In this document: piece after piece, positions 20,550-63,920 of the stretch
Numbering within the stretch: the first letter of the stretch is position 1
How the letters are laid out: every line of letters begins with the position of its first letter
DNA from: a virus
Reading direction: 5' to 3' (one strand)
DNA: 63,920 nt
Virus record (IMG/VR): IMGVR_UViG_3300044464_000029
Location: 1 to 63,920 of that record
The notes under the pieces: model-generated
What the model was told of the DNA's origin: nothing
Database searches by the model: none
What the model saw: the letters and a program-made list of their open reading frames with translations, nothing else
Made by a program: the position numbers and the translations under genes

Positions 20550-22991
20550 ATGTTAACTGGTGGACGAGCGGTCTCTAAAGAAAAGTATTTTGAGCATATT
20601 GGCTATAAGCCACATGAGAAGCAACAACTGTTTCATGATAGCAACGCAAGATTTAAGATTCCTGTATGCGGTAGAAGATTCGGAAAACTTCTCGATGTAA
20701 ATACAATAATTCCAACAGTTAATGGTATGATTAAGATTGGCGATTTGTCTGTTGGAGATCAAGTATTTGATGAGAATGGTTTAGTTTGTAATGTTATAGG
20801 TGTAAGTGAAATACAGCACCGCGAAGATGTATTTGAGTTAACGTTCGACGATGGCAATACATTAGTTGCACATGGTGAACATGAGTGGCTAACATATGAC
20901 AAGAAAGCTCGAAAGACACGTGATTCTGTCGATAGCTTACATGCATCTGATAGTCGTAGAAAAATTGTACCCCCCGCAGTTAGAACTACAAACGAAATTA
21001 GAAACACATTAATTGCACTAGGAGAAACCAATCACGCAATTGAGCTGACTAAGCCAATTGAGTACCCAAAGCAAGATTTGCCTATAGATCCATATTTGCT
21101 AGGTGTTTGGCTTGGTGATGGTAGCACTAATGATGGCGTAATTACCTTGCCTGATTATGACGAATGGATCTTAAGCAAGATTCAAGATCGTGGTTATGAA
21201 ATTACAAGAACACAAAGCAAAGATCGTTGTCCGCAATGGCGTGTACTTGGCTTACGAACCTTGTTAAAAGATAATTTCTTACTTGGCAACAAAAGAGTTC
21301 CAGTTGCTTACTTGTATGGTAGTGTGGAACAACGTAGAGATCTACTACATGGCTTGATGGATACAGATGGTACAGTAGGAAATAATCATGTGGATTTTGA
21401 TAATACTAATGAAAAACTTGCTGCGGTTGTTGATTACTTGATTTGCTCTCTTGGCGGTCGAGTGACTAGATCAAAGCGCATTGGTAAGCTGTATGGTGTA
21501 GAAAAGAAAATGTGTTACAGAGTGCATACCGGAAACATAATTGATGTGTTTAGTTTGCCTAGAAAATTAGAAGCCCAACAGAAATTACCATTCAGAAATC
21601 GTTATTATAGATTCATAAAATCAGTTGAGCCTGCCACACCAAGACTGATGCGTTGTATTGCTGTAGATTCTCCTTCAAATTTGTATTTAGCTGGCAAAGC
21701 TTTCATTCCAACTCACAATACATACATGGGAGCAAGAGAGGCTGAACCTCTCTTGATGGTGCCGAATAAGCACATATGGATCGTTGGGCCAACTTATGAT
21801 CTTGGAGAGAAGGAATTCCGGGTCATTTGGCAAGATATGATTGTAAAACTGGGTATGGGTCGCGAGAAGCAAATTCGTAAAGCATTCAACAAACGTGCTG
21901 GCGATATGTTTATTGAATTCCCCTGGAATACTAGAATTGAAGTGAGATCTGCCGATCGACCGGAAACTTTGGTCGGTGATGCTTTAGATTATGTAATTAT
22001 GGCAGAAGCTGCTAAGCATACTAAAGAAACCTGGGATCGTTATATTAGACCAGCGCTAGCCGACCGCAGAGGTTCCGCAACCTTCAGTACGACACCCGAG
22101 GGTCAGAATTGGATTCATGATCTGTGGCAGCTTGGTCGTAACCCACTCTTCGATGATTATGAATCGTGGAGATTTCCATCTTGGGAAAACAAAGTAGTTT
22201 ATCCTGATGGTAGAAACGATAAAGAAATAATTCTACTTGAACGAACAATGCCGCCAGAATGGTTCTTACAGGAAATTGCGGCTGATTTTACTAGCTTCAT
22301 GGGTAAGATTTACTCGGAGTGGGATGAAATAACACATGTTAGGCCACATAAATATAACCCACTCTGGAAAAATTATATAGCATTTGACTGGGGTTTCGTT
22401 AACCCAATGGCCGCAGTAGAATTTCAAGTTGATCCAATGGATCGCATTCATGTTTGGCGTTTGCATTACAAGACACATACCAGACTTGAAACATTCTTAC
22501 ACCAAATGCAAGACAGAGAACAGCCTGAAGGTTATAAAATTGATCTTTGTTTCGGAGATGCTGCGGATCCTGAAGCAGTAGCAACAGTGTGCGCAAGGTT
22601 CGCTCCTTGCATTGCTGATCCGCTTTCAAAGTCAAATTGGCGAGAAGGCATAGATTTAGTAAAAAGTTTTCTCTCGACCCGTACCGTAGGGTACCTCGAC
22701 GAATTCGAAACACCGCTAGACGAGCCATGGCTATTTGTAGACCCTGCCTGTGGGGATTTGATCCGCGAGTTCAATAACTACCGGGCGGTTGCACCTAGTT
22801 CAGGTAAGCCGAGAAACCCGAGAGAAGACGCCCAGAAGTATGATGACCACGCACTAGACGCATTGCGCTACGCTTTAATGCATATTTTCAAACTTGGTGC
22901 AACCATGAGCTTGAGTGAAGTTATGATGGATCAGATAATGGAAGATAAACCAGCCACAGGTTACTTTACCTCAAATAAGGAATTTGTGTGA
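20550..22991 (+). CDS. terL: Terminase large subunit with intein
   Basis: 813 residues before splicing, about 469 after. The mature protein is the packaging motor: Walker A VCGRRFGK-T (residues 39-46, then Thr391 after the intein), Walker B YVIMAEAAK, and a C-terminal RNase H-like nuclease with DWGFVNP, FGDAADPEA and DDHALDALRY acidic residues. It cuts concatemeric DNA and drives it into proheads through the portal encoded downstream. The 344-residue intein (20688-21719) splits the P-loop exactly between Lys and Thr, so packaging depends on splicing. Confidence 0.9.
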   Translation: MLTGGRAVSKEKYFEHIGYKPHEKQQLFHDSNARFKIPVCGRRFGKLLDVNTIIPTVNGMIKIGDLSVGDQVFDENGLVCNVIGVSEIQHREDVFELTFDDGNTLVAHGEHEWLTYDKKARKTRDSVDSLHASDSRRKIVPPAVRTTNEIRNTLIALGETNHAIELTKPIEYPKQDLPIDPYLLGVWLGDGSTNDGVITLPDYDEWILSKIQDRGYEITRTQSKDRCPQWRVLGLRTLLKDNFLLGNKRVPVAYLYGSVEQRRDLLHGLMDTDGTVGNNHVDFDNTNEKLAAVVDYLICSLGGRVTRSKRIGKLYGVEKKMCYRVHTGNIIDVFSLPRKLEAQQKLPFRNRYYRFIKSVEPATPRLMRCIAVDSPSNLYLAGKAFIPTHNTYMGAREAEPLLMVPNKHIWIVGPTYDLGEKEFRVIWQDMIVKLGMGREKQIRKAFNKRAGDMFIEFPWNTRIEVRSADRPETLVGDALDYVIMAEAAKHTKETWDRYIRPALADRRGSATFSTTPEGQNWIHDLWQLGRNPLFDDYESWRFPSWENKVVYPDGRNDKEIILLERTMPPEWFLQEIAADFTSFMGKIYSEWDEITHVRPHKYNPLWKNYIAFDWGFVNPMAAVEFQVDPMDRIHVWRLHYKTHTRLETFLHQMQDREQPEGYKIDLCFGDAADPEAVATVCARFAPCIADPLSKSNWREGIDLVKSFLSTRTVGYLDEFETPLDEPWLFVDPACGDLIREFNNYRAVAPSSGKPRNPREDAQKYDDHALDALRYALMHIFKLGATMSLSEVMMDQIMEDKPATGYFTSNKEFV
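20688..21719 (+). mobile_element. Class 3 intein with LAGLIDADG domain in terminase
   Basis: 344 codons. The first residue is Leu (LLDVNT) where class 1 inteins have Cys or Ser. The WCT triad of class 3 inteins is present: Trp in GEHEW (block B), Cys in LMRCIAVDS (block F) and Thr in FIPTHN (block G), with Thr as +1 residue. DPYLLGVWLGDGS and LLHGLMDTDGTVG are the two LAGLIDADG motifs, both with intact Asp, so the homing endonuclease may be active. The insertion site is the conserved P-loop. Confidence 0.85.
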
Positions 22992-40141: not shown

Positions 40142-40998
40142 ATGGTTTATTCGAAAAAGGACGTGAAGGATTCCTCGATGGCAGCATCGATTGGGATACT
40201 GACACGATCAAGGCAGCCCTGCTTGACCTTGGTACCGCTGATACTGGTATCAAGGCAATTGTAAGCTCGACAAATGCTACTCCAATTGTAGTAACAGTGA
40301 CATCACATGGATTTACTAACGGTGACTTTGTATTCATTGATGGGCATACAACCAACACTGCTGCCAATGGTTATTGGAAGGTTGCTAATCAAGCTACCAA
40401 CACAATTGAATTAACTCGCCCGGATGGTACAAACTCTGTGGGGAATGGTGTCGGTGGTGCTACTGGCTACGCCGTCAACTATGGTCCTAGTACTTCTGGC
40501 GACAACTATGATGACTTCAATGGTGCTGTAGTTGGTACCGATCAAACTCTTGGCACAAAAACAGTAGTTGCAGGTGTAGCTGACGCTGCCGATGCTACTT
40601 TCACATCAGTTACTGGTAACTCAGTTGAAGCAGTACTACTCTACAAAGACACTGGTACACCATCGACATCAAGAGTAATTGGTCTTATTACAGGTAAGCA
40701 GATTGTTACTTGTGCAGTACAGGCTGCATCATCTTCTACTTCTATTGTAGTTGATGCACTGACGTATGCAATTCCTTCCGGAACTGTATTAGCATTTAGC
40801 AATGGTGCTTCTGCAACACTATCTTCACTTGCTACGGCTGGAGATCGTTCCATTGCAGTCTCTTCTACTGCTGCAACGATTACGGCAAACTCACGTGCTC
40901 TTGCACCTATTACAGGTTCTGGACTTCCTGTAACTCCTAATGGTGGTAACATCGTGGTTACGTGGGATAACGGGGCAAATAAGATATTCAAACTGTAA
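40138..40998 (+). CDS. Minor tail protein, end duplicated after an endonuclease
   Basis: 286 residues. N-terminal MNGLFEKGREGFLDGSI is typical of a tail/fibre family; the body is Thr/Ala/Val-rich beta. It ends in DNGANKIFKL (40966-40998), and almost the same ten residues are encoded again at 41523-41555 after the homing endonuclease, with mostly synonymous changes. The gene seems to have been invaded and its end replaced. Confidence 0.65.
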   Translation: MNGLFEKGREGFLDGSIDWDTDTIKAALLDLGTADTGIKAIVSSTNATPIVVTVTSHGFTNGDFVFIDGHTTNTAANGYWKVANQATNTIELTRPDGTNSVGNGVGGATGYAVNYGPSTSGDNYDDFNGAVVGTDQTLGTKTVVAGVADAADATFTSVTGNSVEAVLLYKDTGTPSTSRVIGLITGKQIVTCAVQAASSSTSIVVDALTYAIPSGTVLAFSNGASATLSSLATAGDRSIAVSSTAATITANSRALAPITGSGLPVTPNGGNIVVTWDNGANKIFKL

Positions 40999-41029
40999 AG
41001 ATAAAATATAAAAGAATTTGCTGATCAAG

Positions 41030-41527
41030 ATGATATCAAATGATTTCAAAATTGGATGGATTGTAGGAATAATAGAAGGAGAAGGATGGATAGGCAGTGA
41101 CAAAGATGGTAGACCTAAAGTTCAAGTTGCAATGACTGATAGAGATACAATATACAAATTACTGGAGTGGGCAGAAACTGGAATAGTATCAGAGTCAGAT
41201 TGTGGAACTATTACTGGTAAAAGAATTTGGAAATGGGCAATCTATGCTAGAGAAGATGCAGGAAAATTTATTGAGAAAATATTACCTTATCTAGGTACAC
41301 GTAGGAGCGAAAGAGCTATAGAAGTTTTAAACAAATGGAAACTCTTAAAACCAAAACATGGTACCTCAACAACATGTAAACGTGGTCATGAATTGTCTGG
41401 AGAAAACTTATATATTGATGTTAGCCAAGAAAAATATCCTAGACGGCGTTGTAAGAAATGTATGGCCATAAGAGTCAATCAGTACAAGGAAAGATGGAAG
41501 GAGAGGTTGCAACATGCTTCGAGGTAA
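41030..41527 (+). CDS. LAGLIDADG-like homing endonuclease
   Basis: 165 residues from the ATG at 41030 (TTG at 41018 possible). GWIVGIIEGEGWIG near the N-terminus is a single LAGLIDADG motif, so it probably acts as a dimer. The C-terminus holds a zinc finger, CKRGHELSGENLYID with RCKKC, like that of the HNH protein at 63337. It is inserted at the 3' end of the tail gene 40138-40998, reading through into the leftover target. Confidence 0.75.
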   Translation: MISNDFKIGWIVGIIEGEGWIGSDKDGRPKVQVAMTDRDTIYKLLEWAETGIVSESDCGTITGKRIWKWAIYAREDAGKFIEKILPYLGTRRSERAIEVLNKWKLLKPKHGTSTTCKRGHELSGENLYIDVSQEKYPRRRCKKCMAIRVNQYKERWKERLQHASR

Positions 41528-41555
41528 CGGAGCGAACAAAATTTTCAAACTCTAG
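41523..41555 (+). pseudogene. Orphan 3' end of the 40138 gene
   Basis: Encodes GNGANKIFKL and a stop, matching the end of the upstream gene in 9 of 10 residues but only 25 of 33 bases; seven of the eight differences are synonymous. It has no start of its own. It is probably the original gene end, displaced by the endonuclease cassette. Confidence 0.65.
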
Positions 41556-61658: not shown

Positions 61659-61924
61659 TTTTCCGACTTCTTTTTAGGTAAGTGAGTTGCTAATTCAACA
61701 AGAGATTCACAAAAATTTACAATTGCATCATTGAATTGATCTCTTACTTGTTTTCTTTCAAGCCATTCATTATGTAACTCAACGATATGTTCAGCTAGTT
61801 CTTTGGTATCAAACTCAGAAATTAAATAATGTAAATTTTCCGAACTCATCACTAGCCATCTTGATTCGGATTCGAATTCTGAATCAGATTGCAACCACCA
61901 TTGACAATTTATATCGTCACGCAT
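61655..61924 (-). CDS. Hypothetical protein
   Basis: 89 residues from the ATG at 61924, overlapping the helicase stop (TGATG). MRDDINCQWWLQSDSEFES then helices (TKELAEHIVELHNEWLE). Unrecognised. Confidence 0.5.
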   Translation of the reverse strand: MRDDINCQWWLQSDSEFESESRWLVMSSENLHYLISEFDTKELAEHIVELHNEWLERKQVRDQFNDAIVNFCESLVELATHLPKKKSEK

Positions 61925-63334
61925 CAATCATCATCCTCATCACTAATTTCTTCAAGCTCTGGATCGAACTTGCTATCACCAATCAGTCTTCGAATCCATT
62001 GCCATTTTTGTTGAATTACCTTGATACGTTTGCCATCGATAGTATCTTTGGCAATGATATCAATAACTTGAACGGCTGATTTCTGTCCGATTCGGTGTAG
62101 TCTATCTTCAGCCTGAAGATTCAATGCATTGGACCAAGATCTGTCTGTGAAAATAACAATACTAGCGGCAGTAAGTGTGATACCAACCCCACCAGCAGCA
62201 ATAGTGCCAGCAAATACCTGTATCTTGCCATCTTGGAAGCCAGAAATGATTCTAGAACGTTCATCACTCGGCGTTTCTCCAATGAACTTCCCACAGGTAA
62301 TACCCTTCTTCTCCAGCCGCTTAGCTAACAGTTTTATTACCTGAGCAAATTGGCTGAACACTACAACTTGTTGTCCTGTGGACTCTATTACATCCATGAC
62401 AGCATCGAGCTTACTTGATGGTTCAGATAGCATCATCTTTTGACGTTCATTGTCCCACTCAGCAAATGCACAAGCAAACTGTTGTAGACGAGTAAGCTGG
62501 GCAATAACTACTGGGGCAACTACCGGCAAATGTTCTTGCTCACCGATCCAAGCTAACATATCATTCTTCATTGAGTTATATGCTCGACGTTGCTGTGGGT
62601 GTAACTCTACATCTATCTGGGTATAATATTTCTCAGGTAGATCAAACAGCACATCTTCCTTCTTTCTACGAATGTAGAAAGCTTCCATTTCTTGCTGTAA
62701 TCTTTCAGGATTGTTAACTCCAACAATTGTTTTATAACCATTGAAGTTATCAAACATAATATGATCATTATAGTATTTCCAATAGCTGGACCAATACTTA
62801 GGATACAACCAATTTAGAATACTCCAGAGATCATCTGGCTTATCAAATGCTGGTGTACCTGTTAGTGCACTTTTATATCCAGCAGGAATTTCCTTTAGAG
62901 CTATGGACTGCTTGGACTTTCTATTCTGAATTGCGTGTGCTTCATCTGCTATTACGTGAAACCACTTTACCTCTGTTAGTTCAGGCATAAGCCGAAGAGC
63001 TGGCCAGTGACAAATGAATACATCATATGCGTCTCCGGCCAGCTCTTCTACAAAATAGCTTCGATCTTTATTATTGATAGGTAAAATCCGCAAGTCAGAT
63101 GACCAAGCAAACCATGCCCTAGTCCAAGTAGAAACCATAGCTAGTGGGCAGATAACTAGTGTCTTAAGTTTGTGATTTGGAAAATCTGATCTACGCTTAA
63201 GATCCAATGCAATTGCCTCTATAGTTTTCCCGAGGCCCAGGTCTCATGTCGTCACCTATGAGAACGGATTTAACCCTCTCAAGTTTTTCAATACATTCCT
63301 TCTGAAAAGGAAACAATTTTAATGGTGACGACAT
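61924..63334 (-). pseudogene. SNF2-family helicase, frameshifted in Walker A
   Basis: Encodes a SNF2/RapA-like ATPase: LKLFPFQKECIEKLERVK at the start, Walker A split as GDDMRPG and LGKTIEAIALD, Walker B IADEAHAIQN, TGTPAF, and C-terminal VVVFSQF, LTAASIVIFTDR and QAEDRLHRIGQ. One extra G in the GGG run at 63236-63238 shifts the frame inside the P-loop; removing it restores one continuous protein of about 470 residues. The ATG at 63334 has a near-perfect GGAGGTGAT ahead. Either a real inactivation, an exploited shift, or a sequencing error. Upstream lies an HNH gene carrying a second copy of this N-terminus. Confidence 0.7.
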
Positions 63335-63336
63335 TT

Positions 63337-63867
63337 TTACATCACCTCCCCAGCTCGGAAGCGTCTAACCGCTTCATACCGACATGTTCTACATTCTCGC
63401 CATCCTCTTGGATCAACATAGATGTTTTCACCAAAAAAGTCATGACCATTTATACATTCTGTTTTCAAAATTCCGTTCAAACCTCGCCTTTGATTTTCTT
63501 TATGTGTCACAGCTTCTAAATCATGAGGACTTACACATTCATGAACACGACACAAATGATCTATGATCAAACCATCTGGAATTAATCCATGGAAAATCAT
63601 ATAAGTTATTATATGCGCTGGACGTTGATTCTTACGTTGATTGTTGAACTTATCTCGATAGCGCCAAGCATATGTTCCATAAAGAGCAGAACCACCTAGT
63701 GCACCGGTCCAAATCCAACAACCATCGTCGTTTAATCTGATTTTCTTTAGGAAGAGTTCTATTCTCATTCCAAAAAGTGGACCTGGTTCATCATAATCAC
63801 CAATTAGTACTGCCTTTACTCGTTCTAGTTTCTCAACTGCCTCTTTTTGGAATGGGAACAGTTTCAC
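63337..63867 (-). CDS. HNH homing endonuclease fused to a helicase N-terminus
   Basis: 176 residues from the GTG at 63867 (AGGAGG ahead). Residues 1-33 (MKLFPFQKEAVEKLERVK, then VLIGDYDEPG) copy the N-terminus of the SNF2 helicase next door. From MRIELFLKKIRL it is an HNH nuclease (CWIWTGALGG, IIDHLCRVHECVSPHDLE, KENQRRG) with a C-terminal zinc finger (CINGHDFFGENIYVD, CRTC) like that of the LAGLIDADG protein at 41030. It appears to have entered the helicase gene within the P-loop and to bring its own replacement for the displaced gene start. Confidence 0.75.
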   Translation of the reverse strand: MKLFPFQKEAVEKLERVKAVLIGDYDEPGPLFGMRIELFLKKIRLNDDGCWIWTGALGGSALYGTYAWRYRDKFNNQRKNQRPAHIITYMIFHGLIPDGLIIDHLCRVHECVSPHDLEAVTHKENQRRGLNGILKTECINGHDFFGENIYVDPRGWRECRTCRYEAVRRFRAGEVM

Positions 63868-63876
63868 GATCACCTC

Positions 63877-63920
63877 CTAACGGGTTTCTCCACCTGTTAA
63901 TGTCTGATCTAAGATGAATC
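63877..63920 (-). CDS. Possible C-terminal fragment of an upstream gene
   Basis: An open frame from the window edge ends FILDQTLTGGETR and TAG, ten bases before the HNH gene's start. Too short to identify. Confidence 0.3.
   Translation of the reverse strand, partial: FILDQTLTGGETR

Follow-up and report, generated by a model that had tools for sequence, protein, structure and literature searches.

Results

What becomes of a helicase gene when a homing endonuclease gene lies across its start? In the window, by which we mean the whole 63,920-nt stretch analysed (IMG/VR record IMGVR_UViG_3300044464_000029), an HNH ORF that begins like a helicase is followed by a second helicase start and then by the body of an SNF2 helicase, and the helicase locus lies entirely on the minus strand. 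The original prediction, made from the sequence, held that the HNH protein starts with 33 helicase residues reaching to the P-loop (DYDEPG), that a second, DNA-diverged start with its own ribosome binding site leads into the helicase, and that such cassettes regenerate the lost terminus of the gene they enter. Between positions 20550 and 59378 the window also encodes a terminase, head protease, major head protein, tape measure protein, DNA polymerase, primase, Sak4-like annealing protein and exonuclease, a gene set typical of a tailed phage. The features of the locus are as follows.

63337 to 63867, minus strand: HNH homing-endonuclease-like ORF with a GTG start (Pfam HNH_3, E=3.8e-11)
63796 to 63867, minus strand: copy 1, helicase 5' end (VKLFPFQKEAVEKLERVKAVLIGD), at its native place behind the upstream gene and its ribosome binding site
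63341 to 63349, minus strand: Shine-Dalgarno sequence (GGAGGTGAT), which shares bases with the final HNH codons
63245 to 63334, minus strand: copy 2, recoded helicase 5' end (MSSPLKLFPFQKECIEKLERVKSVLIGDDM), with its ATG at 63334
63324 to 63334, minus strand: hairpin 5' arm (ATGTCGTCACC), start codon and next codons, 11/11 complementary to the 3' arm
63246 to 63256, minus strand: hairpin 3' arm (GGTGACGACAT), codons G D D M, abutting the gap; exact reverse complement of the 5' arm
63238 to 63244, minus strand: AGACCTG, the 7-nt gap within Walker A, which intact relatives lack
61924 to 63237, minus strand: SNF2 helicase body (GLGKTIEAI...; Pfam SNF2-rel_dom E=1e-33, Helicase_C E=5.3e-18)

The HNH ORF begins with a helicase N-terminus

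The end of an upstream gene (LTGGETR-stop) and a ribosome binding site precede the GTG at 63867, and the first ~24 residues of the HNH ORF are the original helicase N-terminus. The helicase start foreseen for the HNH protein is therefore present, over ~24 residues rather than 33; the residues that follow, YDEPGP, are not clearly helicase. Because relatives of the HNH protein align with the ORF from residue 33 only, the helicase-like start is an addition to it, and the native HNH start is likely Met36. The Pfam HNH_3 match spans residues 85-129. The ORF combines this nuclease domain with placement in a conserved target whose site is empty in eight relatives. The window HNH has no match in the contigs of seven relatives. 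A search of a phage collection at the DNA level with the window region returned no matches.

The second start reads LKLFPFQKECIEKLERVKSVLIGD and, compared with copy 1, retains 20/24 residues and 46/72 nt. The two copies use the same codon at only 3 of the 20 residues they share, so that copy 2 is synonymously recoded, and the Shine-Dalgarno sequence precedes its ATG. These parts of the original prediction hold, as does the position of the junction inside Walker A. Eight contigs (L001, L003, L004, L006, L047, L050, L052 and L058) carry a single uninterrupted helicase reading GDDMGLGKT, in most of them visibly preceded by the same upstream gene, and the window body is 80-81% identical in amino acids to these intact relatives. 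The locus thus holds one interrupted gene and not two helicase-like genes.

Seven extra bases and an inverted repeat at Walker A

Copy 2 does not lead into the helicase. It is out of frame with the helicase body and reads DDMRPGPRENYRGNCIGS before a stop, its out-of-frame run being RPGPRENYRGNCIGS-stop. The body, of 437 aa, begins GLGKTIEAIALDL at 63237 in a different frame. Seven extra bases separate GAC GAC ATG from GGC CTC GGG AAA ACT, where intact relatives read GDDMGLGKT without interruption. Two reading frames together encode one conserved protein, from which residues specified by the gap are probably absent. The original prediction missed the gap and, with it, the 11-bp inverted repeat that joins the copy-2 start (63334-63324) to the codons preceding the insertion (63256-63246). 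This helix between the start region and the GDDM codons dominates the predicted RNA fold, with z-scores of -2.5 in the window and -3.8 in contig L005, which is described below.

We consider it probable that the HNH cassette restores the 5' end of the helicase and at the same time brings a programmed translational bypass, as mobA and gene 60 do in phage T4. An HNH homing-endonuclease cassette would have inserted at the Walker A codons of a phage SNF2 helicase, the old helicase 5' end becoming the N-terminus of the HNH ORF and the cassette bringing a recoded 5' end with a short insert in Walker A. With that insert the site would also differ from the uncut target, which may protect it from cutting. 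A ribosome would then read copy 2 as far as GAC GAC AUG, the mRNA behind it (start region with GDDM codons) would fold and pull the message backward, and the peptidyl-tRNA would release, skip 7 nt and allow decoding to resume at GGC CUC GGG AAA ACU, yielding GDDM-GLGKT. We propose AUG (63247-63245) as the take-off codon and CUG (63240-63238) as the landing codon, with decoding resumed at GGC 63237. AUG and CUG match imperfectly. Since no stop directly follows the candidate take-off, we do not count the window among the full members of the gene 60 type. It is an atypical case, so the claim of bypassing is weaker for it alone than for the LDMG group introduced below.

Relatives suggest loss and repetition of the cassette

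The 80-kb contig L005 (represented also by a second record, L002/L028, over a stretch of 6,280 identical bases) lacks an HNH ORF but starts its helicase in the manner of copy 2, shares the inverted repeat and has a gap of 8 nt, TTACCTCG. Its leader, TYDAVARFRSKAVI followed by a stop, aligns with the C-terminus of the window HNH protein, RYEAVRRFRAGEVM followed by a stop, at a score that 0 of 200,000 random peptides reached. In our reading, L005 derives from this design and has lost the endonuclease while keeping the gap; its leader resembles a remnant of the HNH gene. Copy 2 of the window agrees with L005 in codon choice at 11 of 16 shared residues, other relatives doing so at 3-7 of 15-17. 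The bodies of the two helicases are no closer than other pairs, with third positions 43% alike and synonymous sites saturated. Likeness of the copy-2 codons despite distant bodies suits a cassette that moves between phages.

An independent second case of the duplication is contig L138, which repeats the window design: an older helicase start (YYLEYG) is fused to a remnant, and a second start leads to LDMG-stop-GLGKT. Together with the intact relatives, this second case upholds the idea of a cassette that regenerates a lost terminus; the part of that idea that fell is the direct joining of the regenerated start to the helicase. As a separate observation, an HNH-AP2 ORF lies exactly at the helicase start in L006 and L054, and the helicase behind it is intact and lacks a gap. 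This arrangement is a second way of invading the helicase gene.

Walker A is interrupted at the same spot in 39 phage helicases

Viral contigs were scanned for Walker A codons split by a few bases, and chance matches and near-duplicates were removed. With the window included, 39 distinct phage SNF2 helicases carry a break of 5-9 nt at the same Walker A spot, and each of the three frames occurs. A GDDM group comprises the window, L005, L017, L061 and L134. The LDMG group is large; many of its members follow VRR-NUC-like genes, and several come from IMG isolate-genome records. YYLDMG genes make up a third group, and L060, L117, L124, L131 and L135 are more distant. Matches of the type of L148-L153, in which the ATG lies outside the helicase frame (for example WADMGLGKT), are ordinary genes and were set aside.

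The gap opens with GGT or GGC and an immediate stop in 34 of the 39 genes (TAA in 14, TGA in 12, TAG in 8), frequencies of stop and glycine that are biased in the largest scan, which required TRR after ATGGGN. Ten records came from scans free of that demand: five have GGY-stop (L060, L117, L124, L131 and L135), two have ATG-TAG (L017 and L061) and three, the window, L005 and L134, have no stop. Across the 34 GGY-stop genes the total gap is 6-9 nt, occurs in all three frames and ends ahead of a second glycine codon, GGY in 30 and GGA in four; a hop from the first glycine codon to the second gives a native-length MGLGKT in every frame. Take-off and landing match less well than in the window in L005 (AUG/UCG) and L134 (AUC).

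Most of the 38 genes other than the window would accordingly take off from GGU or GGC at an immediate stop and land on the second GGN, in what has been called a 'stop-hop'. We incline, with some reserve, to the view that these genes represent a natural class of mobile stop-hop elements, in which phage homing endonucleases attack SNF2 helicases at their Walker A codons and either leave behind or travel with a 5-9-nt bypass element (Shine-Dalgarno sequence, start-anchored stem, glycine take-off, stop, glycine landing). The element would hide the target while ribosomes restore the protein, and would outlive the endonuclease.

Two isolated phages have a related break, GGT TA GGT AAA in Paenibacillus phage Pd_22F (L217) and GGT TGAGA AAA in Fusobacterium phage phiPaco (L218). 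Their gap falls one codon pair later, after MGLG instead of MG, and their hairpins are less clear; in phiPaco the presumed landing codon, AGA, mismatches the GGT take-off. Both helicases are annotated as split or truncated genes. In bacteria, 257 Gb of genomes scanned with GACGANATG, a pattern that misses the LDMG type, gave 50 matches, none in an SNF2 gene, and the LDMG pattern gave three matches, all ATGGGG-, in ~790 genomes of two bacterial classes. The bacterial genomes sampled contained no certain gapped SNF2 case.

Homing endonucleases lie directly upstream of ~10 interrupted genes; the majority of the interrupted genes have no such neighbour. HNH_3 domains occur in the upstream ORFs of L143, L154, L157, L183, L197 and L209; weak matches occur to NUMOD4 in the ORF upstream of L117 and to AP2 in the ORF upstream of L134, the latter ORF being HNH-AP2-like. 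L124 neighbours a DUF559 (VSR-like) protein. On the minus strand of L124, upstream of position 1367, this DUF559/VSR-like ORF lies in another frame within a long in-frame extension of the helicase, which runs between FQKAAIKYALEKFG and TGVLFGDEMG-stop.

Gene-specific hairpins precede the gap

In every gene the start region was paired with the 12 bases that precede the gap, and the best helix was scored. The helix score is 17.8 in interrupted genes and 11.6 in 29 intact homologues, ten of which were added from the phage collection (p=1.8e-8). The stem-loop lies on the 5' side and ends at the candidate take-off codon. Swapping arms among interrupted genes abolishes pairing even within subfamilies, so that each hairpin is specific to its gene; permutation of the arms matched the observed pairing in 0 of 5,000 trials for the LDMG group (p<2e-4), with p=6e-4 for YYLDMG and p=0.02 for GDDM. 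The arms covary: GACAT occurs with ATGTT or ATGTC, GATAT with ATATT or ATATC, and GAAATG with CATTTC. Among 303 hairpin pairs, 33 are G-U, which suits a structure formed at the RNA level. Some interrupted genes have short or bulged helices only. An invertible DNA segment was rejected as an explanation of the repeats: the arms are short, and the G-U pairs indicate RNA.

A Shine-Dalgarno-like motif lies near the 5' arm in 32 of 38 interrupted genes as against 10 of 29 intact ones (p=3.6e-5). By eye, AAAGGAGG stands just before a candidate 5' arm nearer the gap in L060, L124 and L131, and a similar sequence stands directly ahead of the candidate arm in L135. In L124 and L131 it falls inside coding sequence, where no start is required. 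The Shine-Dalgarno sequence may belong to the element and not serve initiation alone.

Alternative explanations

The helicase might be a pseudogene, broken by endonuclease insertion or imprecise repair and holding a functionless gap. The frame is indeed broken in the window, and the gap varies in length among relatives (7 and 8 nt). We regard this as unlikely. Bodies of 390-446 aa are open in nearly all members, and in the eight closest pairs of LDMG-type genes dN/dS is 0.04-0.28 in the bodies and N-terminal pN is well below pS. In the pair L184 and L188, body dS is 0.40 and dN 0.024, with zero replacements in the N-terminus. Both halves are under purifying selection, and the genes behave as functional on either side of the gap. 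Conservation extends to the N-terminal halves, 39 genes share the point of breakage and show gene-specific hairpins, and L005 and the window keep the same design despite synonymously saturated bodies. An error of one nucleotide in a G run was rejected as the source of the break: the insert has 7 nt, and L005 has a related one of 8 nt.

Ordinary recoding, by stop readthrough or by +1 or -1 frameshifting, would leave extra residues in the P-loop. Gaps of 6 or 9 nt are in frame apart from their stop and would permit readthrough; the window would need a +1 shift and L005 a -1 or +2 shift. This too seems improbable, since all three frames and all three stops occur and no single shift serves all genes. 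The ATP-binding loop that would receive the extra residues is highly conserved, whereas a hop gives back MGLGKT without change. A conserved frameshift signal was rejected because gaps of 7 and 8 nt require different shifts.

We give little credence to a restart of translation after the gap, with assembly of two polypeptides split in Walker A and a hairpin that controls initiation. Split enzymes are known to follow endonuclease insertion (Aeh1 NrdA, PMC2988022), a strong Shine-Dalgarno sequence adjoins the hairpin, and a hairpin alone could act to control initiation. Against this, AUG, GUG and UUG are absent from the body frame of the window ahead of GLGKT, and from the stretch between gap and GLGKT in the other genes; a division into MG and LGKT within the P-loop would probably not work. 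Removal of the insert by splicing, whether of RNA (a group I intron or excision of a tiny RNA) or of protein (an intein), is hardly credible. Introns and inteins are common vehicles of homing endonucleases, but the gap is 5-9 nt, L005 has nothing else to remove, and Rfam gave no intron match, group I included, in 61900-63920.

Discussion

A programmed bypass, the reading we prefer, has its precedent in T4 gene 60, the one case from which high-efficiency bypassing is firmly known in bacteria and phages. There, take-off at GGA-UAG is followed by landing at GGA, a 5' stem-loop is thought to pull the mRNA, and a homing endonuclease, mobA, split the ancestral gene and sits beside gene 60 (PMC5009743, PMC11194080, PMC2988022). 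The helicases resemble gene 60 in that a conserved phage protein is interrupted by non-coding nucleotides, a 5' stem-loop abuts the take-off site, most members have a glycine take-off, a stop and a glycine landing, and a homing endonuclease, of the HNH kind in the window, is adjacent in ~10 genes. They differ in their gaps of 5-9 nt (50 nt in gene 60), in a 5' arm that is the start-codon region, 60-100 nt upstream, and in comprising dozens of members, all SNF2 helicases interrupted at Walker A. They differ also in a cassette that bears a recoded N-terminus (window and L138), and the window lacks a stop.

Short-distance natural counterparts of synthetic stop-hops had long been presumed and were not established by 2016, when a review listed weak candidates only (PMC5009743). 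In the synthetic constructs matched codons flank a stop and 9 nt are used per residue (PMC5009743), and the GGY-stop-GGY of members with a 6-nt gap is exactly alike; those constructs are artificial, whereas the helicase cases are natural and lie in phage genes. The byp elements of Magnusiomyces capitatus mitochondria are likewise numerous short bypassed inserts that tolerate imperfect take-off and landing sites, but they are mitochondrial and largely independent of mRNA context, and no endonuclease with a regenerated terminus is described there (PMC5009743). Our search of the literature, mostly outside subscription papers, found no report of bypassing in phage helicases.

If the proposal is correct, ~40 natural candidates, several from isolate-genome records, would form a comparative system that directly tests the roles of stems, stops and codon matches. 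It would also account for the way in which a gene survives the entry of a homing endonuclease into its ATP-binding motif, and for annotation that splits or truncates such helicases.

A mirror case at 41 kb

The original prediction had paired the helicase locus with a mirror case in the same window, and this proved real. On the plus strand at 40968-41554, a 286-aa gene ends DNGANKIFKL-stop and is followed by a LAGLIDADG-like ORF at 41018-41527 (E=2.8e-4, narrowly short of the Pfam cut-off), after which a synonymously different gene end, GNGANKIFKL-stop, lies at 41522-41554. In fungal mitochondria, for example at Allomyces atp6, endonuclease cassettes supply a replacement gene terminus. The helicase cassettes are like them in that the endonuclease ORF brings along a foreign version of the host gene's end; the mitochondrial cassettes differ in supplying 3' ends and in having no bypass gap. 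The 41-kb arrangement recurs in the contig of L017 (L224), where a second copy of the gene end (VTWDNGVNRIFKL-stop) lies ~500 nt past the gene; L225 and L227 carry a single copy.
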